Shown: positions 8,347 to 33,642, counted from the first letter of the stretch. The stretch: DNA of 37,731 bases from an uncultured Butyrivibrio sp. (GCA_947168335.1 CAMVLM010000021.1:1-37731); one strand, 5' to 3'. Notes: generated by a model not told the origin, from the letters alone. Made by a program: numbers and translations.

Positions 8347-10030
8347 AAAAGCATTAAATTTCCTGTCAATTGCATTCCTAACTCTTGTGATGCTTGTGGT
8401 TGTATGTCATTACACATTCAGGCCCAGCGGACTGTCAAGAATAAGACTCCTTGATTCGGGATGGACTGTGGTAACAAAAGATACCGTCTATACTGATGTT
8501 TCCTTATCTCAAATCATAGATAAGAATAAAGTAAAAAATCCCAAGGGAAATATTGTCTCCATGAAAAAGACACTTATGCATGGAAAAGATATACTTTTCC
8601 CCACATTGATGTTCCTTTCAAAGTACAGTGCATTTGAGATTTATCAGGATGGGGAACTCATTTATTCAGATTCTCTGGATAAATTCAGAAGTGGCGATTT
8701 CATAGGAACAAAATACAATTTCATTACACTTAACGGCTTTATGGATTCCAGTGAGCTGGAACTGAAAATGTATATAAACGAGGATAATACCTACTCCTAC
8801 GAGGTTCCGGTCTTCGGTAATTACAATGATGTTATACGGTACTTCATTTTTACCAACCTGTTTCCGCTAAGTTCAGGAGCTTTCCTGATCATTTTCGGAG
8901 TAGCATTCTTTATTATTTCATTGATGTTTTATAAGACACTTCCGGATATTCTGTCACAGCTGTTTTCATCACTTCTGCTGATTGATCTGGGTATCTGGAT
9001 ACTTTGCTACTTCAATCTGTGCGAATTATTTATGAATACCCGGGGGCATACCACTGAAATTGAGTATTTCTCCTTATATATGATGGTGCCATTGGTTTAT
9101 TTACTTATTGGCTGCATTCAGAAACACTATCTGGACTGGATCTTTATGATTACATCAACAACATGTGCTGTAATCTGCTTATTCCTGTTCCTTATGCATA
9201 CAACCGGAATAGCACATGTAAATCTTACCCTTGGTTATTATCAGTCCATCGCATTCATCACTCTGCTGTTCCTGGCTGTTACTATAGGCCGTGATATTGT
9301 TCAGAATAAGCTCCTGCCCTCTGAAAAGATTCAGCTGATCGGACTTGAAATCCTGGCAATATCATTTTTGATAAATGTTGCCTTTTATTATCTTGAATTA
9401 TTTGGAATTGTTCCGCTTAACACTATGACAAAAAGATCAATTCCCATGGGAGCTCTTGCATTTGTTTTTTCAACAATGCTGAACTACTTCACGTATATAT
9501 CGGAATCTTACGCAAGGCGAAAGGAATATGCATCACTTGCGCATCTGGCATATGCAGACGGTCTTACGGATCTTCCCAACAGATCAAGATATGAAAAATA
9601 CATGAGTGATCTTGATAAAAGGAAAGCAGACTATTGCATTATAAGCCTTGATCTTAATGGTCTTAAGGAAATAAATGATAATTCAGGACATGCAAATGGC
9701 GACAAGTACCTTCAGGAATTTGCAACCGTACTCCAGCAATGTTTTGCAGACAAGGCTTTTATTGCCAGAATCGGCGGCGATGAATTTGTCGCAATCCTGA
9801 CCAGAGAATACTGGGAGGAGGTCGATACACTTATTACAAGGCTGCAGGACGCCCTGGAAGTAAAGAATGTCCTTTATCCCGAATACAGGAGAAGCGTAGC
9901 CACAGGATATGCCATGAGCACCGAACTTGAAGATGCTGACTCACACGCTATTTATCTTCTTGCAGACAAGCGAATGTACCAGAAAAAGAAAAAGATGCAT
10001 GAAAAAATGGGCATGAAGCCCAGAGTCTAA
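8339..10030 (+). CDS. Second membrane GGDEF diguanylate cyclase, paralogue of the preceding gene
   Basis: Same architecture; DGLTDLPNRSRYEKY...ARIGGDEF. Start at ATG 8339 after cggaggtg; overlaps the previous CDS by 8 nt. Confidence 0.88.
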   Translation: MNKKALNFLSIAFLTLVMLVVVCHYTFRPSGLSRIRLLDSGWTVVTKDTVYTDVSLSQIIDKNKVKNPKGNIVSMKKTLMHGKDILFPTLMFLSKYSAFEIYQDGELIYSDSLDKFRSGDFIGTKYNFITLNGFMDSSELELKMYINEDNTYSYEVPVFGNYNDVIRYFIFTNLFPLSSGAFLIIFGVAFFIISLMFYKTLPDILSQLFSSLLLIDLGIWILCYFNLCELFMNTRGHTTEIEYFSLYMMVPLVYLLIGCIQKHYLDWIFMITSTTCAVICLFLFLMHTTGIAHVNLTLGYYQSIAFITLLFLAVTIGRDIVQNKLLPSEKIQLIGLEILAISFLINVAFYYLELFGIVPLNTMTKRSIPMGALAFVFSTMLNYFTYISESYARRKEYASLAHLAYADGLTDLPNRSRYEKYMSDLDKRKADYCIISLDLNGLKEINDNSGHANGDKYLQEFATVLQQCFADKAFIARIGGDEFVAILTREYWEEVDTLITRLQDALEVKNVLYPEYRRSVATGYAMSTELEDADSHAIYLLADKRMYQKKKKMHEKMGMKPRV

Positions 10031-10039
10031 ACAGAAAAA

Positions 10040-10086
10040 CAGCCATTAGCTTTCTCCACAAAGATTTCGCTAATGGCTGATTTTTA
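10040..10086. terminator. Bidirectional rho-independent terminator between convergent operons
   Basis: cagccattagc (10040-10050) / gctaatggctg (10069-10079), 11-bp perfect arms, T-run atttttattt on the plus side and aaaaac on the other side. Confidence 0.75.
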
Positions 10087-11352
10087 TTTCTTTAACAGTT
10101 CTTCCAATTTTGTCTGTGCATCAGAAAGTCCCTGATCCATGGACTTTTCCTTGTTTATCACTGCTCCCATCTCTGTTCCGAGAATCTTATAGAAATCCGG
10201 CCACTCTTCCATGACAGGTCTGTACACTCCGCTTTCCAAAGCATCCAGAACTGCTTCAAAAGGAGGATTCTTCTTAACAACTTCAGGGTCCGACAGTGAA
10301 GAATACCTGCAGGGAACCCCTCCGAATTCTATTGTTCCCTTCTGAACCTCAGGATCCATCAGATACTTAAGGAGTTTAACTGATAAATCCTTATTACCTG
10401 AATTCTCAGGGATTCCTATAGTCCATATTCCATAAACGTTTGCATTATAGGCCGCTGCATCATCAGTAGCTTTTCCGGTAAGTGCTATATAGTCAGAGGA
10501 TGATCTTGCTGTTGGGGTATACCATCCCGGCCATCCTATAGCCATTGCTGCTGCACCGTTTGCAACTGCAATTATCAGATTGTCACGATGCTCAGCTTTT
10601 CCCGTGGAGATAAGATCCAGGTAGAATTTAAACGCCTCCCTGAACTGCGGAGTATCAACAGTGGGGTTATTATTCTCATCAACAACCCAGCCGCCAAAAG
10701 AGGCCAGTATAGGCAGGAAATCGACAACATAATTATTCTCGGAATCGCCTCTGTACATAAATCCCAGGTTGCCGCTCTTTTTAACAATATCACAGACTTT
10801 TTTTATTTCTTCGAGAGAATGAAGGTCATCCCCCGAAAAACCAGCATTCTCAACAACTTTTTTATTATACAGAAGAACAGTCACATTTCCGTAGTACGGA
10901 GCAAGATACACGTTCTCATCTTTGTAACATATGATGGTCGTGGCTTTAATAATGTCATCATCAAGTTCATAGCCTGTATCGGACAGGTTCATGAGCATGC
11001 CCTTGGCTGTAAATTCAGCCATCCACGAACCGTCAACCATGCACAGGTCATACTCACCCTCCGCTTTCTGCGCATTCTCCACCAGACCGTTATGAAGTTC
11101 TTCCTCTCCAAGCTCGACAATATCGCAGATTACTTTATTTTCTTCTTCAAAAGGCACAAGGCATGATTCTATGGCATCCACATATATTCCCGACCTCAGA
11201 GCCAGTTTCAGATGAGGTGCAGTATCGGGATCCACAGTGAGTTTCTGCCGGCTATTCGATTTTCCACAGGCAATCAGTGAAACAGTCATTGCCAGAATCA
11301 ATATGACCGCACTGATCTTTTTTAATCTCGCCCTCATTGCCTTTCCTTTCAT
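10084..11352 (-). CDS. Extracellular solute-binding lipoprotein, family 1 (sugar-type)
   Basis: Lipobox signal peptide (AMTVSLIAC-GKS); body typical of family-1 binding proteins (LYNKKVVENAGF, AMAIGWPGWYTP, LKYLMDPEVQKG). Confidence 0.87.
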   Translation of the reverse strand: MKGKAMRARLKKISAVILILAMTVSLIACGKSNSRQKLTVDPDTAPHLKLALRSGIYVDAIESCLVPFEEENKVICDIVELGEEELHNGLVENAQKAEGEYDLCMVDGSWMAEFTAKGMLMNLSDTGYELDDDIIKATTIICYKDENVYLAPYYGNVTVLLYNKKVVENAGFSGDDLHSLEEIKKVCDIVKKSGNLGFMYRGDSENNYVVDFLPILASFGGWVVDENNNPTVDTPQFREAFKFYLDLISTGKAEHRDNLIIAVANGAAAMAIGWPGWYTPTARSSSDYIALTGKATDDAAAYNANVYGIWTIGIPENSGNKDLSVKLLKYLMDPEVQKGTIEFGGVPCRYSSLSDPEVVKKNPPFEAVLDALESGVYRPVMEEWPDFYKILGTEMGAVINKEKSMDQGLSDAQTKLEELLKK

Positions 11353-11356
11353 ATTA

Positions 11357-12088
11357 TTATCTGATCATTCTGTAGTGGACCGCCTCTTCCATGTCCTTTC
11401 TCACATCATCCAGACAGGCATCCACTCTGTTTTTGGGGATACTGCAAAAAATATTAACAAGTCTTTCATCAAGTTGTGTACCGGAAACTCTTTTTATCTC
11501 CGATACGGCCTCTGCATAGGGAAGCGTCGCCCTGTAGGCCCTGTCCATCGTAATCGCTGAATATGTATCAGCTATGGCAATAATCCTGGATCCCAAGGGT
11601 ATCTGATTGCCTGTAAGCTGATGATATCCGCCACCATCTATCCTCTCATGATGATACAGAATATACTCATTTATTCTTTCAAATCCCGGAATATCCTTCA
11701 GGATACGGACGCTCATTTCAGGATGTCTTTTAACAATGTCCCATTCATTATCGCCAAGCTTACCGGATTTTTCCAAAATATCATTTGGAATCTGCAGCTT
11801 ACCTATATCTATCAGAAGAGAGGCATAATAAAGGTCACTCCTTCTGATAAAAAAGCGGTCTGACAGTGGTAAAAAGTTATACAGCGCCATACTGAGGTTA
11901 TGTACGTGAAGGGAATGTCCGTCAAGGCTTGGATTATCCACTTCAATTATACCCACAAGAATCTCAAGAAGACGTCCTGTCCTGCATTTAATTTTATATG
12001 TTTTATAACACTGGTATATTCCAACAACTGCAAATATCACAAGCAAAAGGATAAGCAGATTGAAAATACCACTATCCACTAAAATCAT
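11357..12088 (-). CDS. HD-GYP-like domain protein with N-terminal TM; degenerate signature (LLIDIGK, HHERIDGGGYH)
   Basis: N-terminal TM helix, GHSLHVHNLS, LLIDIGKLQIP, YHHERIDGGGYHQLTGNQIPLGSRIIAIADTYSAITMDRAYR. Confidence 0.85.
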   Translation of the reverse strand: MILVDSGIFNLLILLLVIFAVVGIYQCYKTYKIKCRTGRLLEILVGIIEVDNPSLDGHSLHVHNLSMALYNFLPLSDRFFIRRSDLYYASLLIDIGKLQIPNDILEKSGKLGDNEWDIVKRHPEMSVRILKDIPGFERINEYILYHHERIDGGGYHQLTGNQIPLGSRIIAIADTYSAITMDRAYRATLPYAEAVSEIKRVSGTQLDERLVNIFCSIPKNRVDACLDDVRKDMEEAVHYRMIR

Positions 12089-13251
12089 GAATTCGCCTCC
12101 CTGGCATCCTTGAATCTAATCTGATTTTTGCCTGCTCTCTTTGCTTCATAGAGCGCTTCGTCAGCCCTCTTATATGCAACATCAATATCCTTGTCATCCG
12201 CGGTAATTTCAGTCACACCAAAAGATGCATGGATACCGTTAAGCCCACCCATCTTTACATTGTTTAATGCATCCAGCATCTTCTGCAGAACTTCAATGAC
12301 TTCATCTCTTCCGGATTTTCCGCGAAGAAATACTATGAACTCGTCACCGCCAAGTCTTCCGGGAAAGCTTCCCTTCTCAGAAAGAACTCTTTCCTGAAAA
12401 GCCCACTTCTCGGTCATATCTATATTAAGTGTATCAATTATCGTAAGTCCTGCGGTCTGTATTGCCTTATCACCCATCTGATGTCCCAGCTTGTCATTTA
12501 TCTGCTTAAATTCATCCAGATCAAGGAGACAGATGGCCATATACTCATCATGAGGCTTATCCACTATATTTCCAGCCAGTGAGAAGAATCTGCCCCTGTT
12601 AAGAAGCGATGTGAGTGCATCAAAGCTGGATTTTATCTCAAGCTCTCTCTGAATCTGAATATTTTTCTGGAATGTCACAAACTGCTGCATTCTGTTTCGC
12701 TGCATTGCGAAGTGGAGAATGATAGCAAGGCTGAAGAATATTATTACATTGTAAAGATCCTGAACCGCAATGTTTAAGGGTTTAACAGTATAAGACGACA
12801 AAATAAACACTGCAACACAGGTAGTGATCATGACCATCATGTACATCATCGTAGTAATGAGGGAAAAAGAGACAACTACGATCATAACAAGAAAAGCTGT
12901 GGCAGCCATATAGGGCTGATCAACCGACACTTTCGTACAATAACTCATCCAGACCAATACATTCCAGATAATATAAAGTCTTAAAAGAATCAGATTACTA
13001 TTATGTTCTAATACCTTTGAAAAAACAAATGAAAAAGCCGCTAATACAGCATAGAAAAAATAGACCTGAACCGGACTCTGATTCACGCTGAAAAGACCTA
13101 AAAAAGAAAAGATAATGCAGGATAGATTAACAACCAGAAACCATATATTCAAAATAAATATATGCCTCTTGTTGTTATCATCTATAAAGTCCCTGCATTC
13201 ATCATAGGTTACTTTATCATAACCATAATAATTCAGACTTTGGGCAACCAT
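12085..13251 (-). CDS. Membrane GGDEF diguanylate cyclase
   Basis: Multiple N-terminal TM helices; FDALTSLLNRGRFF...LLDLDEFKQINDKLGH...GRLGGDEF. ATGA overlap with the HD-GYP gene. Confidence 0.9.
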   Translation of the reverse strand: MVAQSLNYYGYDKVTYDECRDFIDDNNKRHIFILNIWFLVVNLSCIIFSFLGLFSVNQSPVQVYFFYAVLAAFSFVFSKVLEHNSNLILLRLYIIWNVLVWMSYCTKVSVDQPYMAATAFLVMIVVVSFSLITTMMYMMVMITTCVAVFILSSYTVKPLNIAVQDLYNVIIFFSLAIILHFAMQRNRMQQFVTFQKNIQIQRELEIKSSFDALTSLLNRGRFFSLAGNIVDKPHDEYMAICLLDLDEFKQINDKLGHQMGDKAIQTAGLTIIDTLNIDMTEKWAFQERVLSEKGSFPGRLGGDEFIVFLRGKSGRDEVIEVLQKMLDALNNVKMGGLNGIHASFGVTEITADDKDIDVAYKRADEALYEAKRAGKNQIRFKDAREANS

Positions 13252-13385
13252 AACAACCCCTCAAATAAAAATACGATGCCATAAGTTTCAGCATTTCTCA
13301 TATTTTTAGTGTATCAGACAAATCTAATAATTTTATAAAGATAATCTGATATTAAAATGAGTTTTGCCCAATTATTCTGTCCTGA

Positions 13386-16300
13386 TTACTTTCCGAGTCT
13401 GTCCCTGAACTTCCTGGGGATACCCGTTATCATGCGACCTGTTTTGTAAGAAACAGAATTCTCCATATCTTCATAGGCGCTCTGTAATCTGTTATAACGT
13501 CTCTTCCACATCTGCATCTCTTTTTCAAGAAGCTCATAGCTGTGGCCCAGCTCCCCCAGATCAAACTCTCTGTCTTCGATCTCATCATAAGCACCTTTGA
13601 GAGTATCCATTCTGTAAGTCTTACTGCTCTTTTTCATCACATCTTCGATGGCATCAGGTAACTGCTCATCATAGAAGAACCAGTATGGTCTGTTTGATAT
13701 TCCGAGCTTATTAAACCACTCGTTTTTAGCAAGTCCAAAGTTCATATTGTAACTGTCAGCTTCAAGATTTGAAAGGTCTTCAAGAAGCTTTCTTGCTGCA
13801 TAGTTTGTGAAGTCTCTCTCGTATGAATCATATTCTCCTGATTTTTTCAGCATCTCCATCATGGAGAAAAGCTTTCTGAAATCACTCTCTATCACTGCAT
13901 CAGGATTTTTTCTCACAATGTGCTCATACACTCTGTTTTTACTGTACATAATCCTGTCTGCGTCTATAAGTGCACGCAAAAATACGCAGTTATATGCAGC
14001 ATTGCCATATGCCTCAAAGGTCTTCTTTATTTCATCCCTGAGAAGTTCTGATCTGAATATCTTATTTCTGTAATCGGGAGAAATGAGTTTAAACAGATCA
14101 CGTCTGACTTCATTGGCTTTAAACACCTTTTTAACAGGCATAAGAGCGCAATCCTCGTCATGATATCTCTCCTGATTAACGTCCCTTTTCTGGCATGATA
14201 AATCTGACCAGTAGGTAACTATATCAGCCCTGTCTGCAGTTGCAACCTCATACAGCGGTCTGAACATTATGGATTCATATAGGTTGTCTGCATCAAGGAA
14301 AACAACGTATTCTCCCTTTGCGGCATCAAAACCTTTTATGAATAGTTCTTCCCTGCCTGCATCAATTCCCTGAACAAGAGTAACATTGTCATAGTCAGCT
14401 GCAAATTTCTTTAAAATCTCAACACTTCCGTCATCGGAATTGCCGTCTGAAAGAATCACTTCCATGGTCATCTCATCCCTGGACAGGATCTGATTCAAAA
14501 GGTTCTCTATTTCTGCTTTATTGTTGTGAGTAGCTATTACAGCAGAAACTCGGATTTTCTCATGATAATGCTCAGGAGATTCAATTATCTCGCGCAGCTG
14601 CTTAAATTTACCTTCACCGATAACATCTGCCGTAACCTCATTGTTATTTACAAGAGGCTCAAATACCTCCTTCATATGATAGAGGTAATCCACCTTCTGG
14701 GTTCTGTCGATTCTTCTGTATGTCATCTCAAAATTCTCATGCTTTTTCCTGTAAAAGACATTTTTGAATTTTGCAAATCTATCAGTATCTTTTCTTAACC
14801 ATTCCTCAATGAAGTTGTACTCATTGGTCATGGCATAGAATTTTCCCTTGCTGTAAACAGACGAGTTAGGATTATCTCTTCTGTTCATATAATATGAGTT
14901 TGCTGTAAACCATACTCTCTTTGCACAGACAAAATTCTGGAACCAGAAGCCGTTATCCTGATAGGATGCTCCGGGGGTAAGATTATGTCTTATGCCATTT
15001 TTATTAAGGAATTCTCTGTTATAAATTCCGCTCCAGGTCTGAATCGGGAATGTAAATGTCTTAAAATCATCACTGGTGCATACTACTTTTCCGTAATAGC
15101 TTCTTTCACGAACTATCTTGCCATTTGCTGTTGCAAGCTTTCCATTCGGATCAACACTGAATCTCTCATAATCAGCCCTGACTATGTCAACCTCGTTTGA
15201 TACCGCAAGCTCGTACAGATCTGAATACATATTCAGCTTTACAAAATCATCAGGCTCAAGAATTCCTACATACTCACCCTTAGCCTTATCAAGACCCATA
15301 TTCATGGTGTGTCCGTAGCCGGAATTATCTTTATCAATGATGACAATTCTCTTATCCAGGCTCTGATACTGTTTCATTATATCCATTGAGGAATCTTTAG
15401 AACCATCGTTGACACAGATGATCTCGATATCACCAAGTGTCTGATTGCACAGACTCTCAAGGGCAAGATTTAAATAATCCTCCTGGTTGTAAATAGGCAC
15501 AACCACTGATACCTTTGGCTTTGAAACCTTCTTGTCACAGAATCTGACCTCAGATTTCTTTACAGCAAAAAGATCCTGCCATGTAGAAAAGCTCTTATAT
15601 TTCTGAAAATCCTTCTCCTTGCCGCCATCCTTTATATAATTCTGCTTCTCATACAGATATTCAAGCTTTCTGCTATAGTCAGAAAGACAAGCGTAAGGAT
15701 GCTCATCATAAAGATCATTTGCCATTCCAAACAGAGTTTCATCAAATCCCTGCTCGCCTGCGATATCCTCAAAAAGCTTAAGAACTTCTGAAAACTCATG
15801 CTGAAGGACATTATCTACAGCATCTCTGCCAACCTGCTTATCTTCCAAGGTTCTGATAATAGCCTTTACAGAGTTTACTTTACTAAGATACAGCTGCTTC
15901 TTGTTATCAGGACTCTGCTCTTTTCTCTCCACCACACGGTCAAGGCAGACCATCATCCTGGTGTCTGCGGCAGCAAAGCCATAAAAGAATGACTCATCCA
16001 CATCAGTGTAATCTTCTGAAAAACTTATACCGTTTTTATCAAGGGTTTCTTTTTTATATACAGCAGAAACAGGATTTTTAGAAATCCCGTAGATTGCAGG
16101 ATTTCCATCCAGTGTAAGAAGTCTGTGAACATAACCTGCACCGGAAGTCTCGAAGAGAAATTTGTTCACAATATACAGCTTGTTGCCGGAATTTTTGTAA
16201 AACACGGTAAATCCCATGTAATCCAGCTGATATTTCCTTGCTTTGGCGATAACCGGTGAATATCCATACTCGTAAATGATATCTCCGGCCTTAATAAAAT

Positions 16301-16550
16301 GAACGTATTCACCAGTAGCAGCTTTAAGTCCGGCATTATATGCCTTACCTCTGCTTCCGGAATTCTCACTTAATACAGTAATCCTTCCGTCCTTTTGTGC
16401 AGCATCCTTAAGGGACTTATATTCAGCATCATCCCTTAAAACGCAGATTATTTCCACGTCGCAGTTTTCCTGACGGCAAATGGATTTTACCGTGCTTAAT
16501 GCACCTTCCTCATCCTTATATACATCAACAATTACAGATATATCCTTCAT
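13386..16550 (-). CDS. Multidomain glycosyltransferase with three GT2-like modules and C-terminal coiled coil
   Basis: GT2-like starts at DISVIVDVYKDEEGAL, PKVSVVVPIYNQEDYL (LEPDD) and IRVSAVIATHNNKAEI (FLDADN); C-terminal SVSYKTGRMITGIPRKFRD. Confidence 0.88.
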   Translation of the reverse strand: MKDISVIVDVYKDEEGALSTVKSICRQENCDVEIICVLRDDAEYKSLKDAAQKDGRITVLSENSGSRGKAYNAGLKAATGEYVHFIKAGDIIYEYGYSPVIAKARKYQLDYMGFTVFYKNSGNKLYIVNKFLFETSGAGYVHRLLTLDGNPAIYGISKNPVSAVYKKETLDKNGISFSEDYTDVDESFFYGFAAADTRMMVCLDRVVERKEQSPDNKKQLYLSKVNSVKAIIRTLEDKQVGRDAVDNVLQHEFSEVLKLFEDIAGEQGFDETLFGMANDLYDEHPYACLSDYSRKLEYLYEKQNYIKDGGKEKDFQKYKSFSTWQDLFAVKKSEVRFCDKKVSKPKVSVVVPIYNQEDYLNLALESLCNQTLGDIEIICVNDGSKDSSMDIMKQYQSLDKRIVIIDKDNSGYGHTMNMGLDKAKGEYVGILEPDDFVKLNMYSDLYELAVSNEVDIVRADYERFSVDPNGKLATANGKIVRERSYYGKVVCTSDDFKTFTFPIQTWSGIYNREFLNKNGIRHNLTPGASYQDNGFWFQNFVCAKRVWFTANSYYMNRRDNPNSSVYSKGKFYAMTNEYNFIEEWLRKDTDRFAKFKNVFYRKKHENFEMTYRRIDRTQKVDYLYHMKEVFEPLVNNNEVTADVIGEGKFKQLREIIESPEHYHEKIRVSAVIATHNNKAEIENLLNQILSRDEMTMEVILSDGNSDDGSVEILKKFAADYDNVTLVQGIDAGREELFIKGFDAAKGEYVVFLDADNLYESIMFRPLYEVATADRADIVTYWSDLSCQKRDVNQERYHDEDCALMPVKKVFKANEVRRDLFKLISPDYRNKIFRSELLRDEIKKTFEAYGNAAYNCVFLRALIDADRIMYSKNRVYEHIVRKNPDAVIESDFRKLFSMMEMLKKSGEYDSYERDFTNYAARKLLEDLSNLEADSYNMNFGLAKNEWFNKLGISNRPYWFFYDEQLPDAIEDVMKKSSKTYRMDTLKGAYDEIEDREFDLGELGHSYELLEKEMQMWKRRYNRLQSAYEDMENSVSYKTGRMITGIPRKFRDRLGK

Positions 16551-16560
16551 TTTTCTGTCC

Positions 16561-17703
16561 TTAAAGCTTTTCGTATACTTTCATTATCTCATCAGCATTT
16601 TTACTTGCCGTGAAGTTTTCCATGGCATATTTCTGCCCGTCTTTTGCTATTCCAATGTACTTATCGTAATCCTCTATAACGCTTCTCATCTTAAGATGCA
16701 GATCATTGGAATTTTCGCTCTTATAAAGTACTCCGGCATCACCGTTATCAAGTACCTCGGGAGTCGCACCGGAATCAGCTCCGATCACGATACAGCCTGC
16801 CATCATGGCTTCAACAGTAACTCTTCCAAAAGGTTCGGATATTGAGCTCATGATATACGCATCACTCTTTTTATAAAACAGCGCAACATCTGATCTGTCC
16901 CCGTAAAAGGTAACATTTTCTGAAAGACCTTTTTTATTGACCATATCCTCAAGGACAGTTCTCTTCTCGCCACTTCCGATAAAGGAGATATGGAAATTGT
17001 TTATGCCCTCTTCTTTCAGCATACCTGCAGCTTCAACAATGTATTCCTGACCTTTATTGGTATTCATGCTGCCTACGTTCAAGAACTCCAGTACATCCTT
17101 CTTATTACCAAAGTCCCTTTCACAATAAAAATCCTTCTCATCTATTCCATTGTAAATAACCAAAGACCTGTCAGTCTTTAATCTTGGAGAGTAATAATCC
17201 CTTATAAACTCAGAGATATCAATAACCCTGTCCGCCTTATCAATAAGTCCGTAGCACTTGTCGGAAAAAAGGCTTCTGTTCTGGAAAATCTCCAGAGCCT
17301 CTCTAATATGCCACACACAGGGTATCTTACATCTGGCGGCAGCCTGCTGCCCCACATAGGACCATATCGTGTTTATATGGACAATATCAACCTTCTCCTT
17401 CCTGATCAGAGAAGCTATCTGAGTAATTGCAAAAATCTGGTTGTACAGTCTCTTGGTCATCATAGATAACTGAACCTTGGAACTGCCCTGATCCTTCTCC
17501 CAAATAGTCCAGGAAAAGGATCTGATATAGAACCATCTAATATTTTCATTATCAAGAAGCTCCTGACCGTTACCCTTCCTTGGAAGCACAACGATGGGAT
17601 CATACTTACCGCTTTTTCTTAAAAGGCAGCACAGTTTGACCATGCTTCTGAAGGCCCCGCTGTATGCAGCGTTATCTGAAGCCACAAAAAGAATCTTTTT
17701 CAC
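16561..17703 (-). CDS. Glycosyltransferase family 4 (GTG start)
   Basis: KKILFVASDNAAYSGAFRSM; NVGSMNTNKGQEYIVEAAGML; SISEPFGRVTVEAMMAGCIVIGADSGATPEVL. RBS cggaggaaca-GTG. Confidence 0.9.
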   Translation of the reverse strand: MKKILFVASDNAAYSGAFRSMVKLCCLLRKSGKYDPIVVLPRKGNGQELLDNENIRWFYIRSFSWTIWEKDQGSSKVQLSMMTKRLYNQIFAITQIASLIRKEKVDIVHINTIWSYVGQQAAARCKIPCVWHIREALEIFQNRSLFSDKCYGLIDKADRVIDISEFIRDYYSPRLKTDRSLVIYNGIDEKDFYCERDFGNKKDVLEFLNVGSMNTNKGQEYIVEAAGMLKEEGINNFHISFIGSGEKRTVLEDMVNKKGLSENVTFYGDRSDVALFYKKSDAYIMSSISEPFGRVTVEAMMAGCIVIGADSGATPEVLDNGDAGVLYKSENSNDLHLKMRSVIEDYDKYIGIAKDGQKYAMENFTASKNADEIMKVYEKL

Positions 17704-17727: not shown

Positions 17728-19770
17728 TTATTCTGCTTTTAATTCAAAGAATGAGTTAACTCTGTTATCAATATCGATCAGATGATTATAGCAAAGTATA
17801 TTGTAAAGCTTCACCTTGTCGTAATAGGGTGAGCTTGTATCATCAATAGTATAGTAATTGCCATCAGCACCCACATATCCGTATGTGTTGATGATCGGAA
17901 CATCCTCCATGAGATCAATAAGGAACTTACTGTATCCGCTCATCTTCATTCCAAACATATTCAAAATATATGCCTGCAGGTAATTAACACTGAACTCTGT
18001 CTTTGGAGCAAAGGCTGTTTCATCAAAATCAAAGTTTGCCCATACAAGATACTTTGAATAGTAAATCTGATATCTGTCTTTTCCATCCAATGCTTCCACA
18101 TCTGTACCAAGAAGCTTTTTATAAATCCCGCCGTTAATTCCCGGCTGATGATCTCCAAAGAACACAATAACAGTTGGATCATCCGTATTCTCAAAATAAT
18201 TGACCAGTTTCCCCAGAGCAGCATCACTGGCATGTATCAGATTGAGGTATTGTTTTACCTCATCATCACTAAAATTATCATCCAGTACATTTACCGCCTC
18301 TTCAAGATTAACCCTGTCCTCAGTATAAGGGCTGTGATTCTGCATGGTCACATTGAAAATATAGAAAGGCTCATCACTCTGTTCTTTGGCCTTCTCATAT
18401 TCGCTGATAATTCTGTCGAAATCAGCTTCATCAGAAATATGCTCACCGATTCTGAATGCATCCTCCGGGTAATCCTCCTCGGATATGAAGTCAGAAAATC
18501 CCATCATTGCATACACAGCCTGTCTGTTGTATCCGTTAGGCAGATAAGGATGCATCGCAAGGATTCCCGAGTAATTATCCAAAGTCAGATTCCTGGTAAG
18601 TGTAGGGAAAAACTTACGTATATAAAGCTGATAAGGCGAAGTACTTGCAGGTAAAAATCCCATTGAATCGCCACTTAAAAACTCATATTCAGTATTTGCC
18701 GTATCTCCCTTATATGCTGAAACATACAATTTTCCCTTGATTGTATTGTCAGTCAGGCTTTCATAAAAAGGCATAACCTCTGTATCAGTCTTAAAATCTC
18801 CCACATCCTGTATATCAGCGTAGGCCTCATCCATGATTACGATCATATTCGGTCTGTTTTTATCGGTATCTGTGACTGAATCTGATGAGTATTGCTGCTC
18901 TACTTCTTTCACAACTGAAGCATCATATCCGTCAGGTTTTTCAGGACTGAAAACCTTAAGGTTACATACCATGGACAAAAGTCCACCGAACTTGGTGTAG
19001 GATATCATGGGCCTGTTCATCTTAAGATAAATTCCATGGTCCTTGAGGTAATTTGTTCCAATAAGGAAATTATAAACACCTACAGTCATGGCAATATATA
19101 CTGCAGCCAGAACAAGACGGATTCTAAGGCGCTTTTTGACCTTATCTGTGTCAGTGATTTTGGTTGATCTGGCAAAAATCACAACTGAAATACTGAGTAA
19201 GAAAAATGACAAAGTCATGAACTGACGCCAGCTGATGTTATAGGAATAGCCGGATGCTACGTTTGCTGCAGCATCAAACTTGAAAAAATCTCCAAGAAGA
19301 AACGGAACCTGACGGAACTTATACACATAGTAATTGACCATTCCAAAGGTTGTGCAGAAGAGCGCAGGAATAAAAAATGCCCATCTAGCAGAATATGTAA
19401 TGACGAATACTCCCCACACGATAATTCCGTAAAGAATGTAGTTACAGGACAGTACTATACCTGTATCAACGCCTTCAGCCAGATAAAACTTTGACATAAA
19501 GGCAGTCTCTGTTACAAAAAAGCACATTGCAGGATATAACAGCATAAAGGGAATCAAAAGATATTTGCTGCCAAAATCCCAGACTTTTTTACTTACGAAA
19601 GGAACTACTGCTGCCAAAAACAAAAACAGAAGTGACAACAGTTTAAAACGTATATGACTCGACTCATCAATAAGGCCGTGTAAAATCACTGCTGCAATCG
19701 CAATGACTGCCACATAAACCAACTTTAAAATAATTTTTTTATCTAATTTGTTCTTTATAAATTCACTCAT
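17728..19770 (-). CDS. LtaS-like sulfatase-superfamily phosphoglycerol transferase (GacH-like candidate)
   Basis: About 6-7 N-terminal TM helices, NMIVIMDEAYAD, KGDTANTEYEFLSGDSM (LtaS-type catalytic Thr context), VIVFFGDHQPG. Start at ATG 19770, overlapping the previous stop by 8 nt. Confidence 0.85.
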   Translation of the reverse strand: MSEFIKNKLDKKIILKLVYVAVIAIAAVILHGLIDESSHIRFKLLSLLFLFLAAVVPFVSKKVWDFGSKYLLIPFMLLYPAMCFFVTETAFMSKFYLAEGVDTGIVLSCNYILYGIIVWGVFVITYSARWAFFIPALFCTTFGMVNYYVYKFRQVPFLLGDFFKFDAAANVASGYSYNISWRQFMTLSFFLLSISVVIFARSTKITDTDKVKKRLRIRLVLAAVYIAMTVGVYNFLIGTNYLKDHGIYLKMNRPMISYTKFGGLLSMVCNLKVFSPEKPDGYDASVVKEVEQQYSSDSVTDTDKNRPNMIVIMDEAYADIQDVGDFKTDTEVMPFYESLTDNTIKGKLYVSAYKGDTANTEYEFLSGDSMGFLPASTSPYQLYIRKFFPTLTRNLTLDNYSGILAMHPYLPNGYNRQAVYAMMGFSDFISEEDYPEDAFRIGEHISDEADFDRIISEYEKAKEQSDEPFYIFNVTMQNHSPYTEDRVNLEEAVNVLDDNFSDDEVKQYLNLIHASDAALGKLVNYFENTDDPTVIVFFGDHQPGINGGIYKKLLGTDVEALDGKDRYQIYYSKYLVWANFDFDETAFAPKTEFSVNYLQAYILNMFGMKMSGYSKFLIDLMEDVPIINTYGYVGADGNYYTIDDTSSPYYDKVKLYNILCYNHLIDIDNRVNSFFELKAE

Positions 19771-20863
19771 AATAATGTAATTCCTGTTTGCTGACATCTG
19801 TATATATACCGTCCACACCACAATCTACAAGATACTTTTTCATCTCATCCATGTCGTTAACGGTATGCACAAACATAGGTATATTGTTTTCCTTAATGCT
19901 TTCAAGAAAGACGCTGTCATCTGCTCTGGCCGTTGAAAATGTATATCCCACAAGATCCATTTCCTTTGTGAACTGTTTCAGCTTGCCAAAGTCCATATCT
20001 TCATCTTTTATTCTGTACAGTGTAAATATTATATTCTTAAATCCAAGACTGGTAATCTTCTCATACTGATTATAGCTGTAGATCTGAACTATGAATCTGT
20101 CCAGGATATCACTGCACTCCTTCTGAATCAGCTTACACTCTTCATAGTTGTTATCCTTACAGTCCGTAACAACATAGAAATCATCATGCTCTCTCATGAA
20201 TTCTGCAAGCTCTGTAAGAGTCAGGGTGCTAAGTTCACCGTAAATTCCTGCATTATTAAATTCCTCAAGTGTAGGAGTTTCATACAGACCGGAGCCTTCA
20301 CACCACTCAATCGGATCACCCTTCTTATCATGGGCGCAGACAAGGTAACCATCCGAAGTCACTCTGAAATCAAACTCGGAAACCCTGTTTCCTTCCTGAT
20401 AACAATTCTCCAGGGCGTCCTGACTGTTTGTTTTGCGGTGCGACTCTCCGCTTTTTCCTGTCACATCTCCACCAGCGTGAATGATGTATTTCTCCTGACA
20501 CAAAAGCTCTCTGACACCTGCTATGTCCCGCTCGTCGGTATACTTTGAATATATTCCCGAAGCAACCGCCACTCCGCTTATCACTGATATAACTACGAGA
20601 AATGCGCTTGCAATTTTCTGCTTTTTGACTATAATCCCTGCCGCAATGATAAATGCAAGGACCAGCACAGCTATCGCCATAGCCTTAAAGGGAAAACCTG
20701 TGGCACTTAAAGCATCTCTGTTCCCCAAAGCAAAATTATAAATCCCCAGATCGGCAGAACTGTCTATAGCTTTGAAGTACCATCTTATATAGACTTCCGC
20801 CAATATGATCAGAGTGAACAGGCCCTGGATTAAGATGCCTGTTTTCTTACCTGTTTTTTTCAT
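19763..20863 (-). CDS. Glycerophosphodiester phosphodiesterase (GDPD) family membrane protein
   Basis: TM segments at the N-terminus; YIIHAGGDVTGKS...NSQDALENCYQEGNRVSEFDFRVTSDGYLVCAHD; FVHTVNDMDEMKKYLVDCGVDGIYTD. Confidence 0.88.
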   Translation of the reverse strand: MKKTGKKTGILIQGLFTLIILAEVYIRWYFKAIDSSADLGIYNFALGNRDALSATGFPFKAMAIAVLVLAFIIAAGIIVKKQKIASAFLVVISVISGVAVASGIYSKYTDERDIAGVRELLCQEKYIIHAGGDVTGKSGESHRKTNSQDALENCYQEGNRVSEFDFRVTSDGYLVCAHDKKGDPIEWCEGSGLYETPTLEEFNNAGIYGELSTLTLTELAEFMREHDDFYVVTDCKDNNYEECKLIQKECSDILDRFIVQIYSYNQYEKITSLGFKNIIFTLYRIKDEDMDFGKLKQFTKEMDLVGYTFSTARADDSVFLESIKENNIPMFVHTVNDMDEMKKYLVDCGVDGIYTDVSKQELHYYE

Positions 20864-20909: not shown

Positions 20910-20937
20910 ATTATACAATATTATCCTTCATTTGTAA
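20910..20937 (-). promoter_or_regulatory. Candidate sigma-A-type promoter for the GDPD-LtaS-GT4-GT2 transcription unit
   Basis: Minus-strand TTACAA-16 nt-TATAAT in the 148-nt intergenic gap. Confidence 0.55.
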
Positions 20938-20958
20938 GCAACAACTAATTTTATTCCT

Positions 20959-20998
20959 AAAAAAAGAGCAGTAGAATCCGCATTCTACTGCCTCTTTT
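20959..20998 (-). terminator. Strong rho-independent terminator after the GT8 gene
   Basis: Minus strand: aagaggcagtagaatgcggattctactgctcttttttt. Perfect gcagtagaat/attctactgc arms, ccgc loop, T7. Confidence 0.88.
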
Positions 20999-23052: not shown

Positions 23053-24009
23053 TCAGGAATTGAATGTAAATTCATCCTTAGTCAAAAGCTCAGGGCGGTT
23101 TTTCTTAAGTACATTGAATGCAGCAAGTACTGCTGATTCTGACTCACCCTTTTCAAGAATAGCCTGCAGCTTTTCTGCTTCTGTGCGCGACTTTTCTTCC
23201 TGTTTCTCCCTCATTCTCTTTTCATAAGCTTTGGAAAGCTCATTTATATCATCCTCTGATTCTGGAAGCTTCTTGGTAAGAAGAAACTCCTCATATGCGT
23301 TGACATACTTCTCAACATCATCGGAAAATGCTATCTGTTTGCCGTGATCCAGCCAGAGGATCTTATTACACAGCTCTCTTATCTGAGACTCATTGTGTGA
23401 TACCAGAATACCTGTGATTCCGGCATCAAGGATCTCCCTCATCTTGTCTCCGCTCTTCTTTCTGAAGGCACCGTCACCTACGCTCAAAACCTCATCAAGA
23501 ATTATGATGTCCGGATCTACAAGACAGGCAATTGCAAAAGCAAGTCTGCTCTTCATACCACTTGAAAGCTGTTTGAACATGTAATCCTGGAAATCCTCAA
23601 GTTCAGCGAAAGCAATGATTTCTTTATATTTTGCATCAAGGAATTCCTTGGTGTAGCCAAGAAGTGCTCCTCTGAGATACGTATTTTCACGGACCGTCAT
23701 GTCATTATCAAAACCACTGGCAAGCTCCAGAAGAGCTGCAATACTTCCATGAGTTGTTATCTGTCCGTCTCCGGGCTTCATAATACCGGTTATAGCCTTA
23801 AGAAGAGTACTTTTTCCGGCTCCGTTGGATCCGATTATTCCAAGCATGTCTCCCTTTTCAATGGAGAAAGAAATATTCTTATTGGCCCAGAATTCTTTTA
23901 CATGATAGTTGCCGGTTATCTTTTTTACTACAAATTCCTTCAAACCTATGGATTTAAGATCACCGGTAATATATCTTACACTGACATTTTTACATTCAAT
24001 AGTTGGCAT
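23053..24009 (-). CDS. Polysaccharide ABC transporter ATP-binding protein (Wzt/TagH-like) with charged coiled-coil C-terminal extension
   Basis: Walker A GSNGAGKST, signature QLSSGMKSRLAFAIA, Walker B DIIILDEVLSVGD; C-terminus YEKRMREKQEEKSRTEAEKLQ. Confidence 0.92.
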   Translation of the reverse strand: MPTIECKNVSVRYITGDLKSIGLKEFVVKKITGNYHVKEFWANKNISFSIEKGDMLGIIGSNGAGKSTLLKAITGIMKPGDGQITTHGSIAALLELASGFDNDMTVRENTYLRGALLGYTKEFLDAKYKEIIAFAELEDFQDYMFKQLSSGMKSRLAFAIACLVDPDIIILDEVLSVGDGAFRKKSGDKMREILDAGITGILVSHNESQIRELCNKILWLDHGKQIAFSDDVEKYVNAYEEFLLTKKLPESEDDINELSKAYEKRMREKQEEKSRTEAEKLQAILEKGESESAVLAAFNVLKKNRPELLTKDEFTFNS

Positions 24010-24017
24010 GTATTACC

Positions 24018-24809
24018 TCACATATAATATACAAATTCCTTGTTGTACTTCTTGTAGATCGCGCTTCCGATTGCAAGATAGAAAAGCGCATAGAATGCCA
24101 TCAGTAAATGATACTGCGGTGAAGGAATTACACCGTCAATGACAATTGATCTGAAGTACTTGATCATTACATATACAGGATTAAGCATAAACAGCTGCTG
24201 TGTTCTTACGCTGAAGGAATCAACACGATAGAATATTGCAGACAGATATGTAAGCAATGTCAGGAAGACATCATACAAATACTGTATATCCCTGAAGAAT
24301 ACAAACAGCGCTGATAAAATCATTCCTATTCCAACATTCATGACCACAAGACAGATGATAGGGTACAGAAGAAGTACCATGTGAGGTCCGAAGGTTATCT
24401 TGTCCAACATACAGAACAGGTAATAGACCACCAGTGTCAGCATGAAATTAACCAGTGCGGACACATTCTTGGATAAAAGGAAAAGATATTTGGGAACATT
24501 GATCTTCTGAATGATCTTACTGTTATTCAAAAGACTGCTCATTCCGTTCCTGGTAGCCTCTCTGTAAAATGCCATTACAAGGTTACCGCTAAACAGGTAT
24601 GTTGTATAATGCGGCTGGGTTCTTCCGAAAAACTCCGTAAATACTATCTTCATGATAAGAAGGGTAAGAAGCGGTGAAAGTATGCTCCACAGCATTCCCA
24701 GCGCAGTTCTCTTATACTTTTGCTTAAAATCTCTTTTTACAAGTTCACTGAATAAAAAACTGTATTTTTTTATAGTGAATATCCACTTTTCTAAAACTTT
24801 ACTTATCAT
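24018..24809 (-). CDS. Polysaccharide ABC transporter permease (Wzm-like, ABC-2 type)
   Basis: VKRDFKQKYKRTALGMLWSILSPLLTLLIMKIVFTEFF; six TM; adjacent to the ATPase. Confidence 0.92.
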   Translation of the reverse strand: MISKVLEKWIFTIKKYSFLFSELVKRDFKQKYKRTALGMLWSILSPLLTLLIMKIVFTEFFGRTQPHYTTYLFSGNLVMAFYREATRNGMSSLLNNSKIIQKINVPKYLFLLSKNVSALVNFMLTLVVYYLFCMLDKITFGPHMVLLLYPIICLVVMNVGIGMILSALFVFFRDIQYLYDVFLTLLTYLSAIFYRVDSFSVRTQQLFMLNPVYVMIKYFRSIVIDGVIPSPQYHLLMAFYALFYLAIGSAIYKKYNKEFVYYM

Positions 24810-31216: not shown

Positions 31217-32236
31217 TCAATTGGTTATACTGTCATAGGTTCTGAGAATCATTTTTATTATAAAAATAAAAAATGGCACGGGATGTTTCATCCCTGCATA
31301 TAAGAGCCTGTTTGATTTCTCACTCAGCGAAACAGGTGTGTTACTGATTAACTTCCTGATCTCGCAGTCACTGAAAATATCACAGGAATTCTTTATCCCC
31401 TTAATTCCCGTCTGCCTCAGCTCATTCTTCATCACAAGAAAAAGGAGCATGACGTATTCCCTGTCCATCTGCTCTTTGGCATTTGGTACCTTCTTGTCCT
31501 CCATTATAGCTAAAAAGGTGCGATAATTCAGCTTAACATTATCCAAAAGTCTTTTGTTGTACATATGTGATATTGAGCTGGTCACTGTACGATAATGATA
31601 GAAATATCCACCTTCCAGGACCACAAGTCTCTCTGCATCAAGCAAACAGGGAAGCGTTATATTAACATCCTCTCCCATGCGTACATTATTATCCAGATAA
31701 TGCATATTATCCAGAACCAGCTGCTTTGATATCAGCTTCATGCACCTTGATAATGTTACAGGTCTTGTTTCCTCTCCAAGAAGTTTCAGTTTTACTTTAT
31801 CAAGCTCCTGATTTTCATATATTCCGGGAGGAAGAGTCTGAGTAGCCTTCTTCCTCTCATTCTTTTTTTCAATTATATAATTACTGCTGATAATCTCCTT
31901 TGTTTTACCATCTGAAAGGGTATGTTCAAGGAGCTTCTCGATCATATCTTCATCAACCCAGTCATCACCGTCAATAAAGCACAGATATTCACTTTCTGCC
32001 TTTCTTGCGCCTTCGCTCCAGGCTGACATAAGCCCGCCGTTCTTTTTATGAATAACTCTGATTCGGTCGTCTTTTTGGGCATACTCATCACACATCTGAC
32101 CACTTCCGTCAGTTGCGCCATCATCAACCAGGATGATCTCTATATCCCTATAGGTCTGATTCATCGCGCTTTTAACGCTGCCATCTATATATTCCTTAAT
32201 ATTGTAAACAGGAATAATTACACTGACCTTACTCAA
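31217..32236 (-). CDS. GT2 family glycosyltransferase (TTG start)
   Basis: SKVSVIIPVYNIKEYIDGSVKSAMNQTYRDIEIILVDDGATDGSG...FIDGDDWV; gaggtgcaag-TTG overlapping the upstream stop as TTGA. Confidence 0.9.
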   Translation of the reverse strand: MSKVSVIIPVYNIKEYIDGSVKSAMNQTYRDIEIILVDDGATDGSGQMCDEYAQKDDRIRVIHKKNGGLMSAWSEGARKAESEYLCFIDGDDWVDEDMIEKLLEHTLSDGKTKEIISSNYIIEKKNERKKATQTLPPGIYENQELDKVKLKLLGEETRPVTLSRCMKLISKQLVLDNMHYLDNNVRMGEDVNITLPCLLDAERLVVLEGGYFYHYRTVTSSISHMYNKRLLDNVKLNYRTFLAIMEDKKVPNAKEQMDREYVMLLFLVMKNELRQTGIKGIKNSCDIFSDCEIRKLISNTPVSLSEKSNRLLYAGMKHPVPFFIFIIKMILRTYDSITN

Positions 32237-33642
32237 CTTGCACCTCTTCCGAAAATTACAACACCTACGGTCTTAATCAGAATTCTTATATCAAGTCCCA
32301 GTGACCAGTTATCAATGTACTGAAGATCCAGCTTTACAACGTCATCAAAGTCTTCTATGTCACTTCTTCCGCTGACCTGCCACATACCGGTAAGTCCGGG
32401 AGTCATGCTGATTCTTCTTCTGTAGTAATGGTTGTACTTCTCAAACTCATCTTCCGTCGGAGGTCTTGTTCCCACAAGACTCATCTCGCCCTTAAGAATG
32501 TTAAGGAACTGAGGAAGCTCATCTATACTTGTCTTTCTGATGAAAGCACCAACCTTTGTAATTCTGGGATCCTTCTTCATTTTGAACATCAGACCGTTCA
32601 TCTCGTTCTGATCTTCAAGCTTTTTCTTGATCTCCTCGGCATCGGTTCTCATACTTCTGAACTTGTAAATATTAAAACGTCTGCCGTTTTTACCTATTCT
32701 GACCTGAGAGAAAAATACGGGTCCCGGGGAATCAAGCTTGATGGCAAGAGCCACAAACGGGGTCACAATACCTGTAAGGGTAAGACCCACCAAAGCTCCG
32801 ATTATATCCATAAGTCTCTTTAATATCAGGGCTCTGTATCTGCCTGTTCCGTTAATATATGATATTACCGAATAGGTACCGAATGTGCCCACCTGAGTGC
32901 TTCCTGAAATGCTGGGAAGCTCAATGCAGTAATGCACGGTAACACCCATATCACCAAGGGCTTCTATTGTCTTATTAAGATCACTCTGACTGATATCAGG
33001 GGTGTGGATAAATACTTCATCAAGAGGAAGTGCAGTAACCTTGTCGATTATGTTTTCCCTTGTGGCAATAACCTCAACTCCTCTTATCACCTCGCCGGTA
33101 AGATCCTCATCGATACATACAGCACCTACAATATGGTAATTGATCTCAATTCTGTGCTGAAGGTGTCTTATGGTAGGCATCAGGTTTTCCTTCTCAGCTA
33201 CCACAAGAAGCTTAACTGCAGTATCTCCTGACTTCCAGTAGGTTTTTAATATACTCTTGAATACCTGATGAATGATAAGCATTAAAAGAGCATCAATTAC
33301 AGTAAAGTAAAACATTACCAGTCGTGAAAACTGCTCTGCCAGCTGCAGTACATAAGCAACTGAGATAGTTCCCAGAACCATTGTCAGAACATATTTGAAT
33401 ATTGCAGTGCCTTCCTTCCAGAAGGATCTTTTAATAAAATCTCTGCTGTAATCAAGGGCGTAATGATAAACTGTTGCCACGAGCATGAGTAAAACACAGA
33501 TATAAAAGTGTGTTGTCTTATCTCTCATGTCTCTGAAATTAAAATATCTGATATATGTGGCAAAAACAAAGGACAACATAATCGTAGCCATGTCCATGCC
33601 CCATATAATGTATCCGATTAGATACTTATTTCTTCCTTGCAC
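32233..33642 (-). CDS. Undecaprenyl-phosphate sugar phosphotransferase (polyprenyl glycosylphosphotransferase, priming enzyme; GTG start)
   Basis: N-terminal TM bundle, KRLMDIIGALVGLTLTG, KLDSPGPVFFSQVRIGKNGRRFNIYKFRSM, IDELPQFLNILKGEMSLVGTRPP; RBS ggaggagaaaa-GTG. Confidence 0.95.
   Translation of the reverse strand: MQGRNKYLIGYIIWGMDMATIMLSFVFATYIRYFNFRDMRDKTTHFYICVLLMLVATVYHYALDYSRDFIKRSFWKEGTAIFKYVLTMVLGTISVAYVLQLAEQFSRLVMFYFTVIDALLMLIIHQVFKSILKTYWKSGDTAVKLLVVAEKENLMPTIRHLQHRIEINYHIVGAVCIDEDLTGEVIRGVEVIATRENIIDKVTALPLDEVFIHTPDISQSDLNKTIEALGDMGVTVHYCIELPSISGSTQVGTFGTYSVISYINGTGRYRALILKRLMDIIGALVGLTLTGIVTPFVALAIKLDSPGPVFFSQVRIGKNGRRFNIYKFRSMRTDAEEIKKKLEDQNEMNGLMFKMKKDPRITKVGAFIRKTSIDELPQFLNILKGEMSLVGTRPPTEDEFEKYNHYYRRRISMTPGLTGMWQVSGRSDIEDFDDVVKLDLQYIDNWSLGLDIRILIKTVGVVIFGRGAS

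Follow-up and report, generated by a model that had tools for sequence, protein, structure and literature searches.

The stretch of DNA analysed here (the window, 37,731 nt, from an uncultured Butyrivibrio sp.) is contig C21 of a 3.34-Mb assembly that is 85.7% complete. A glycan gene cluster occupies its minus strand between 37613 and 13386 and contains an initiating transferase, many glycosyltransferases, and pyruvyl transferase-like, DUF6056 and DUF4422 genes, followed by wzm, wzt and a GT8 gene (Table 1). In the unit that lies downstream of these, a GDPD gene is followed by an LtaS-like gene, a GT4 gene (after a gap of 24 nt) and a triple-GT2 gene (after 10 nt). A preliminary description of the locus had placed the GDPD and LtaS-like pair at the start of a unit, ahead of a GT4 and a three-module GT2, with an 8-nt overlap between the two genes of the pair. 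The open reading frames and the Pfam matches agree with this order, and the overlap is seen in the sequence. Its length is exactly 8 nt if translation of the transferase (680 aa) begins at the ATG at 19770; the longest LtaS-like open reading frame starts with a GTG at 19821 and spans 697 aa.

Table 1. Features of the locus, with positions counted from the first letter of the window
Feature	Position	Strand	Basis
Initiating sugar-phosphate transferase (Bac_transf)	32233..33642	-	PF02397 E=9e-69; 76% identity to L244
DUF4422, GT11, pyruvyl transferase-like (PyrT) and DUF6056 genes; syntenic with fusion-bearing clusters, 46-76% identity	25801..30206	-	
Wzm-type ABC permease; 71-75% identity to orthologue in fusion-bearing clusters	24018..24809	-	Homology
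Wzt/TagH-type ABC ATPase; 65-68% identity to orthologue in fusion-bearing clusters	23053..24009	-	Homology
GT8-domain glycosyltransferase, 687 aa	21012..23075	-	PF01501 E=3e-35
Terminator-like hairpin, 11 pairs and T-run, after GT8 gene	20967..20992	-	Sequence
Promoter-like site CTTACA-17-TATAAT, sigma-70-like, 10/12, upstream of GDPD gene	20910..20938	-	Consensus match only
GDPD-superfamily phosphodiesterase, 366 aa, ATG start	19763..20863	-	PF03009 E=8e-14; alignments; hydropathy
8-nt overlap ATGAGTGA: transferase gene start and GDPD gene stop	19763..19770	-	Sequence
GacH-like phosphoglycerol transferase, 680 aa	17728..19770	-	PF00884 E=1.5e-25; GacH 5wcx E=4e-23; profile E=5e-45; alignment
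GT4 glycosyltransferase, third gene of the unit	16561..17703	-	PF00534 E=1e-34
Three-domain GT2 glycosyltransferase, fourth gene of the unit	13386..16550	-	PF00535, 3 stretches, E=8.5e-65

The hairpin and the sigma-70-like site separate the GT8 and GDPD genes and, for this reason, the unit is better placed directly downstream of wzm-wzt-GT8; across the whole region, sigma-70-like sites occur in near-chance numbers. The GDPD-led unit is probably a separate transcript. The earlier statement that the pair sits inside a polysaccharide transcription unit is therefore kept for its position beside polysaccharide and export genes, but not for its membership of their unit. The GT8 gene overlaps wzt by 23 nt, and the unassigned C-terminal half of its product may be a second glycosyltransferase. 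Directly downstream of the cluster and on the same strand, genes for GGDEF, HD-GYP-type and sugar-binding proteins are found, with two further GGDEF proteins on the opposite strand (10084-13251 and 6574-10030 for these genes together). With these neighbours, control of the cluster by c-di-GMP is possible.

The transferase and the GDPD

By its sequence, the transferase is a GacH-like phosphoglycerol transferase and not a canonical LtaS. A single-sequence search of all solved structures retrieved GacH (5wcx), with no match to LtaS at 1e-3. When a profile of 18 relatives was used against the solved structures, GacH was the best match with 157 bits, followed by the Listeria LTA synthase and primase (approximately 84 bits) and the LTA synthases 2w5q/2w5r (approximately 70) and 2w8d (48); LtaS structures thus surface with the profile only, and score under GacH. 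The MdoB models gave no match to the window transferase. In the comparison with LtaS, GacH and MdoB proposed in the preliminary description, the protein therefore falls nearest GacH, and the analogy with GacH-type enzymes drawn there is supported in part, by these scores and by the adjacent wzm/wzt-type export genes. The sulfatase-fold motifs named in the same description (DEAYAD, TANTEYEFLSG and GDHQ) are all present and fall on conserved columns, and residues E315, T357, H407, R416, D540 and H541, which lie on GacH motifs, are invariant in the alignment. Approximately seven hydrophobic or transmembrane segments precede the catalytic domain. Relatives of the transferase are found in 115 of the 150 genomes of the family, some of them being distant LtaS-like matches, while in the genus the protein is accessory (strong matches in 15 of 79 genomes). 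The predicted structures, with pLDDT values of 42.8 for the GDPD alone and 32.9 for the transferase with one homologue, were too poor for a fold search.

The GDPD scores 52.7 bits against PF03009, for which the curated cut-off is 23.6. Hydropathy reveals three N-terminal hydrophobic segments (residues 8-26, 61-79 and approximately 86-104), consistent with the membrane placement previously suggested. The GDPD domain is predicted to be extracytoplasmic in several formats: after transmembrane segments in the window, after a transferase domain in the fusions described below, and behind lipoprotein-type signals in L243 and L253-L258. Residues H129, E163, D165, H178, D234 and K236 are kept in 32-35 of the 35 aligned GDPD domains, and in 33-35 when K236 is set aside. 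In GlpQ, His43, Arg44 and His85 bind the phosphate, and Glu70, Asp72 and Glu152 bind the metal (PMC7086022). E163 and D165 align with Glu70 and Asp72 of B. subtilis GlpQ, and Q260 with Gln188 (by our residue count), while the third metal ligand is an aspartate (D234) where GlpQ has Glu152. Across the 35 domains, the position after the first histidine (Ala130 in the window) holds Ala 29 times, Ser 4 times and Arg twice; its equivalence to Arg44 of GlpQ was set by the motif, as the local PDB alignment begins further on. The active site is, from these alignments, intact-looking but non-canonical. The window GDPD lacks the phosphate-binding arginine of the HRG motif and belongs to a subfamily distinct from the GlpQ type.

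This difference bears on the substrate. GacH and SccH add sn-Gro-1-P to side-chain sugars, and in the case of SccH this group comes from phosphatidylglycerol (PMC8807736, PMC11754754). GlpQ is specific for sn-glycero-3-phospho groups and cannot cut Gro1P-LTA (PMC7086022), so that the analogy with GlpQ is not directly transferable to a decoration of the GacH/SccH kind. Given that GlpQ is blind to intact Gro1P polymers, a GDPD dedicated to a Gro1P transferase would need a different active site, and the subfamily has one. The alanine in place of the phosphate-binding arginine would fit an altered substrate, and its fit to Gro1P is suggestive.

Recurrence of the transferase-GDPD pair

In three genomes of the same genus (G204, G154 and G169), a single open reading frame of 923-929 aa encodes the transferase followed by the GDPD; in the G204 protein, the Pfam matches span residues 295-595 for PF00884 and 705-913 for PF03009. 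The clusters with these fusions have DUF6056, PyrT, GT11, DUF4422, Wzm and Wzt in common with the window at 46-76% identity (55-76% when DUF6056 is set aside), and are orthologous to the window cluster. The GDPD of G160 and that of G185 each have a gene of their own, which occupies the slot of the fusion beside DUF4422. Simple read-through from the window order was rejected as the source of the fusion, given that the GDPD precedes the transferase in the window whereas the transferase comes first in the fusions. The fusion genomes (L184/L185, L186/L187 and L188/L189) also hold a second, unfused GacH-like copy approximately 13 kb away in the same cluster, which is the closest relative of the window transferase (49% identity).

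A profile search of all 79 genus genomes returned 20 strong GDPD-subfamily genes, every one of them within 5 kb of a GacH-like or MdoB-like transferase. Three of these are the fusions, seven lie less than 5 kb from a GacH-like gene, one is clustered with an MdoB-like gene (4.96 kb), and nine stand in divergent orientation to an MdoB-like gene (six established by sequence and three by coordinates). Chance adjacency was rejected on comparing these 20 of 20 with 20 canonical GDPD loci in seven genomes, of which 1 has a PF00884 gene of any kind less than 5 kb away; the control is rough because the two counts come from different genomes. The single canonical GDPD near a PF00884 gene is found at G110:C50:34024-38084, at a distance of 2.6 kb. 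Given that the 20 linked genes collapse to approximately six independent arrangements, genome counts overstate the evidence for linkage. Using independent profiles, both proteins were found in 13 genomes of the genus, the transferase only in 2, the GDPD only in 1 and neither in 63 (Fisher p=5e-12, a value that ignores relatedness); both transferase-only genomes are 83% complete, and the single GDPD-only genome pairs its GDPD with an MdoB-like gene. The neighbourhood survey suggested in the preliminary description has thus found a pairing that recurs, includes gene fusions, and is accompanied by Wzm and Wzt orthologues in the fusion clusters. Because the pairing is recurrent and includes fusions, a functional link between the transferase and the GDPD is well founded and can be considered highly probable.

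A second module is present in the genus, in which the GDPD, again of this subfamily, carries a lipoprotein-type signal and is divergent from an MdoB-like transferase of approximately 743 aa, with 66-145 nt between the two genes (L253-L258, at approximately 6.5-12 kb in each; G154:C1, G169:C2 and G176:C16).

Outside the genus, candidate same-frame fusions occur in G562 (847 aa) and G844 (681 aa) of family f34 and in G610 (819 aa) of f48, as judged from a shared open frame and in-register coordinates, and in G819 (f53) the transferase and a lipoprotein-type GDPD are 6 nt apart. The two genes are also adjacent in L164, L168, L169, L175, L167 and L040. Of the 38 GDPD-subfamily loci found outside the genus, at least 10 have a detected transferase linked to them, a lower bound because only two transferase profiles were used for the 21 family loci. 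When the transferase is taken as the anchor, 1 of 80 loci of the family has a subfamily GDPD nearby, and a general rule by which all GacH-like transferases come with a GDPD partner was therefore rejected. This means that the transferase usually works without such a GDPD; the pairing is an elaboration limited to certain lineages and is most marked in the genus of the window.

When 44 GDPD domains were placed in a maximum-likelihood tree, the window GDPD grouped with the copies of G176, which is 417 nt from a GacH-like gene, and G253, which is 345 nt from an MdoB-like gene (support 98/92). The enclosing clade has 21 rows (support 96/92), all but two of them linked to a transferase. The linked GDPDs of L168, L169, L175, L167 and L040 fall outside this clade, indicating that the link spans more than one GDPD branch.

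The neighbouring genes give some indication of the polymer. Two LicD genes are present in clusters with a fusion or a split pair, together with genes for an IspD-type cytidylyltransferase and for proteins resembling CDP-glycerol glycerophosphotransferase (L184:7582-10092; L190:1075-3624 and 10661-15537). Given the presence of these genes, the exported polymer of the fusion clusters is likely to be rich in phosphodiesters and is perhaps teichoic-acid-like; the same three types of gene are absent from the window segment. In G165, G183, G194 and G181, the GDPD follows an N-terminal region of approximately 400 aa with sub-threshold Pfam matches only (LANC-like, GH47 and GlcNAc-2-epimerase), and its gene belongs to an operon-like stretch that also encodes a GT2-GGDEF-EAL synthase-like protein and a GacH-like transferase, a context that leans weakly towards a glycan over a lipid substrate. 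A stretch of this kind, with a GacH-like transferase, a GT2-GGDEF-EAL protein of 1110 aa and a protein of 700 aa that combines an unassigned N-terminal domain with a GDPD, is seen in L197-L200 (for example L199:3370-10696), and may represent a c-di-GMP-linked glycan with the same transferase-GDPD pairing.

A possible writer and eraser of glycerol-phosphate

The two genes may form one module at the outer face of the membrane, in which the transferase writes glycerol-phosphate and the GDPD erases it. This proposal is the best reading of the pair, with a probability just short of an even chance. The GacH-like transferase would take sn-glycerol-1-phosphate from phosphatidylglycerol via the active-site Thr357 and transfer it to the glycan that the neighbouring Wzm/Wzt exports. 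The membrane-anchored GDPD would then hydrolyse the glycerol-phosphodiester so made, using His129 and His178 and a metal held by E163, D165 and D234, and the degree of decoration would be lowered or reset. The proposal draws on what is read from the sequences, namely the families, the intact catalytic residues, the predicted extracytoplasmic placement, the recurrent linkage and the natural fusion. WhyD provides a precedent for the tailoring of a surface polymer by a membrane enzyme with a GlpQ domain (PMC9208761). We infer that the acceptor would be the glycan of the same cluster, that the group would be sn-Gro-1-P, and that the GDPD would act on that product; for the last, that the GDPD is an eraser of what the transferase makes, the chances are about even. 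A narrower version is speculative and somewhat unlikely: that the subfamily with Ala for Arg is a dedicated eraser of phosphatidylglycerol-derived sn-glycerol-1-phosphate, which several clostridial lineages have built into the transferase to give a single-polypeptide writer-eraser. Against the proposal as a whole stand the sparse linkage to a detected transferase outside the genus and the rarity of this GDPD beside transferases of the family. The specificity proposed for the GDPD also requires the subfamily to differ from canonical GDPDs, because these cannot cut Gro1P polymers (PMC7086022).

Other functions for the pair have to be weighed. The GDPD may correct the decoration and not reverse it, if the transferase also extends glycerol that is already attached and the GDPD trims Gro-P-Gro back to single groups. 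This would account for a fusion with the synthase, and is in line with the fold that the transferase has in common with the chain-polymerising LtaS and with the exolytic trimming of poly-GroP by GlpQ, which stops at the linker (PMC7086022). Nonetheless, polymerisation by the window transferase has no support, and the GroP groups described for GacH and SccH are single ones, with neither enzyme having a GDPD as its described partner (PMC11754754), which makes this length editing fairly unlikely. The locus may instead serve lipoteichoic acid, with the transferase as the LTA synthase of the strain, the GDPD turning over LTA and the neighbouring glycan being irrelevant. The transferase is indeed the sole PF00884 protein found in its genome, which is 85.7% complete, but the profile score for GacH exceeds that for LtaS by over 70 bits, the NCBIfam LtaS models give no match even at E=10, most genomes of the genus are without the transferase, and the gene is embedded among glycosyltransferases and an exporter. 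A role as LTA synthase is, for these reasons, very improbable.

It is also quite improbable that the GDPD leaves the glycan untouched and acts on membrane lipids, such as lysophosphatidylglycerol, in the vicinity of an enzyme that consumes phosphatidylglycerol. The LtaS reaction releases diacylglycerol and not a lysolipid, and the same would be expected of the transferase; moreover, several members of the subfamily are lipoprotein-like or lie C-terminal to the catalytic domain of a transferase. The window GDPD is predicted to be membrane-anchored, as is S. aureus LpgD, a GDPD with a transmembrane anchor that hydrolyses lysophosphatidylglycerol (PMC10404611), but LpgD (8ghh) matches the GDPD profile only weakly (25.9 bits). 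Lastly, the GDPD fold may have been recruited for synthesis or binding, for instance as a phosphotransferase, the change from Arg to Ala marking the loss of ordinary hydrolase activity. The phosphate-binding arginine of GlpQ is missing in the subfamily (PMC7086022), and AvrBs2 is an example of a GDPD-derived synthetase (PMC12807533). Both catalytic histidines, the three metal-ligand positions and the glycerol-binding glutamine are nonetheless retained, so that such a recruitment is highly doubtful.

If the pair does write and erase, its significance would lie in the removal step. In streptococci, the glycerol-phosphate of glycans sets the charge of the cell wall and affects how the cells divide, form biofilms and withstand cationic antimicrobials (PMC11754754, PMC8807736). 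An enzyme that removes glycerol-phosphate from surface glycans is not described in the literature searched, and the stereospecificity of canonical GlpQ is the wrong one for this task. With the conserved and at times fused pair, the idea of a surface decoration that is first written and later erased can be put to the test: a single purified domain and a pair of enantiomeric substrates would address the question of removal. The GDPD could also supply a tool enzyme to strip LTA-type (Gro1P) groups.

Comparison with known systems

The preliminary description knew of no described example of the pair, and in agreement with this the literature search found neither a transferase-GDPD pair nor a fusion. 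GlpQ and WhyD resemble the window GDPD in belonging to the GDPD superfamily and acting outside the membrane, WhyD being a membrane-anchored enzyme with a GlpQ domain that removes wall teichoic acid (PMC9208761); in the literature searched, neither type is described as paired with a phosphoglycerol transferase. They differ in that the window GDPD has Ala for Arg44 and Asp for Glu152, while GlpQ is stereospecific for Gro3P. LpgD is likewise a membrane-anchored extracytoplasmic GDPD, but has a canonical active site and a lipid substrate.

With regard to the transferase, LtaS and the LTA primase have the fold and the catalytic motif in common with it, and are set apart by their lower profile scores, by its accessory distribution in the genus and by its glycan-cluster context. 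MdoB/OpgB is relevant because the GDPD subfamily has, within the genus, a second class of transferase partner that resembles MdoB (PRK12363 E=2e-49), although with scores below the curated cut-off, whereas the window transferase has no MdoB model match. GacH and SccH are alike in the catalytic Thr, the metal ligands and the substrate-side His, in the combination of several transmembrane segments with an outer catalytic domain, and in the adjacent Wzm/Wzt exporter. No GDPD partner for GacH was found in the literature searched. The window system differs from GacH/SccH in that its acceptor is probably not a rhamnan, and in having a transferase that is paired with, or in relatives fused to, a GDPD.
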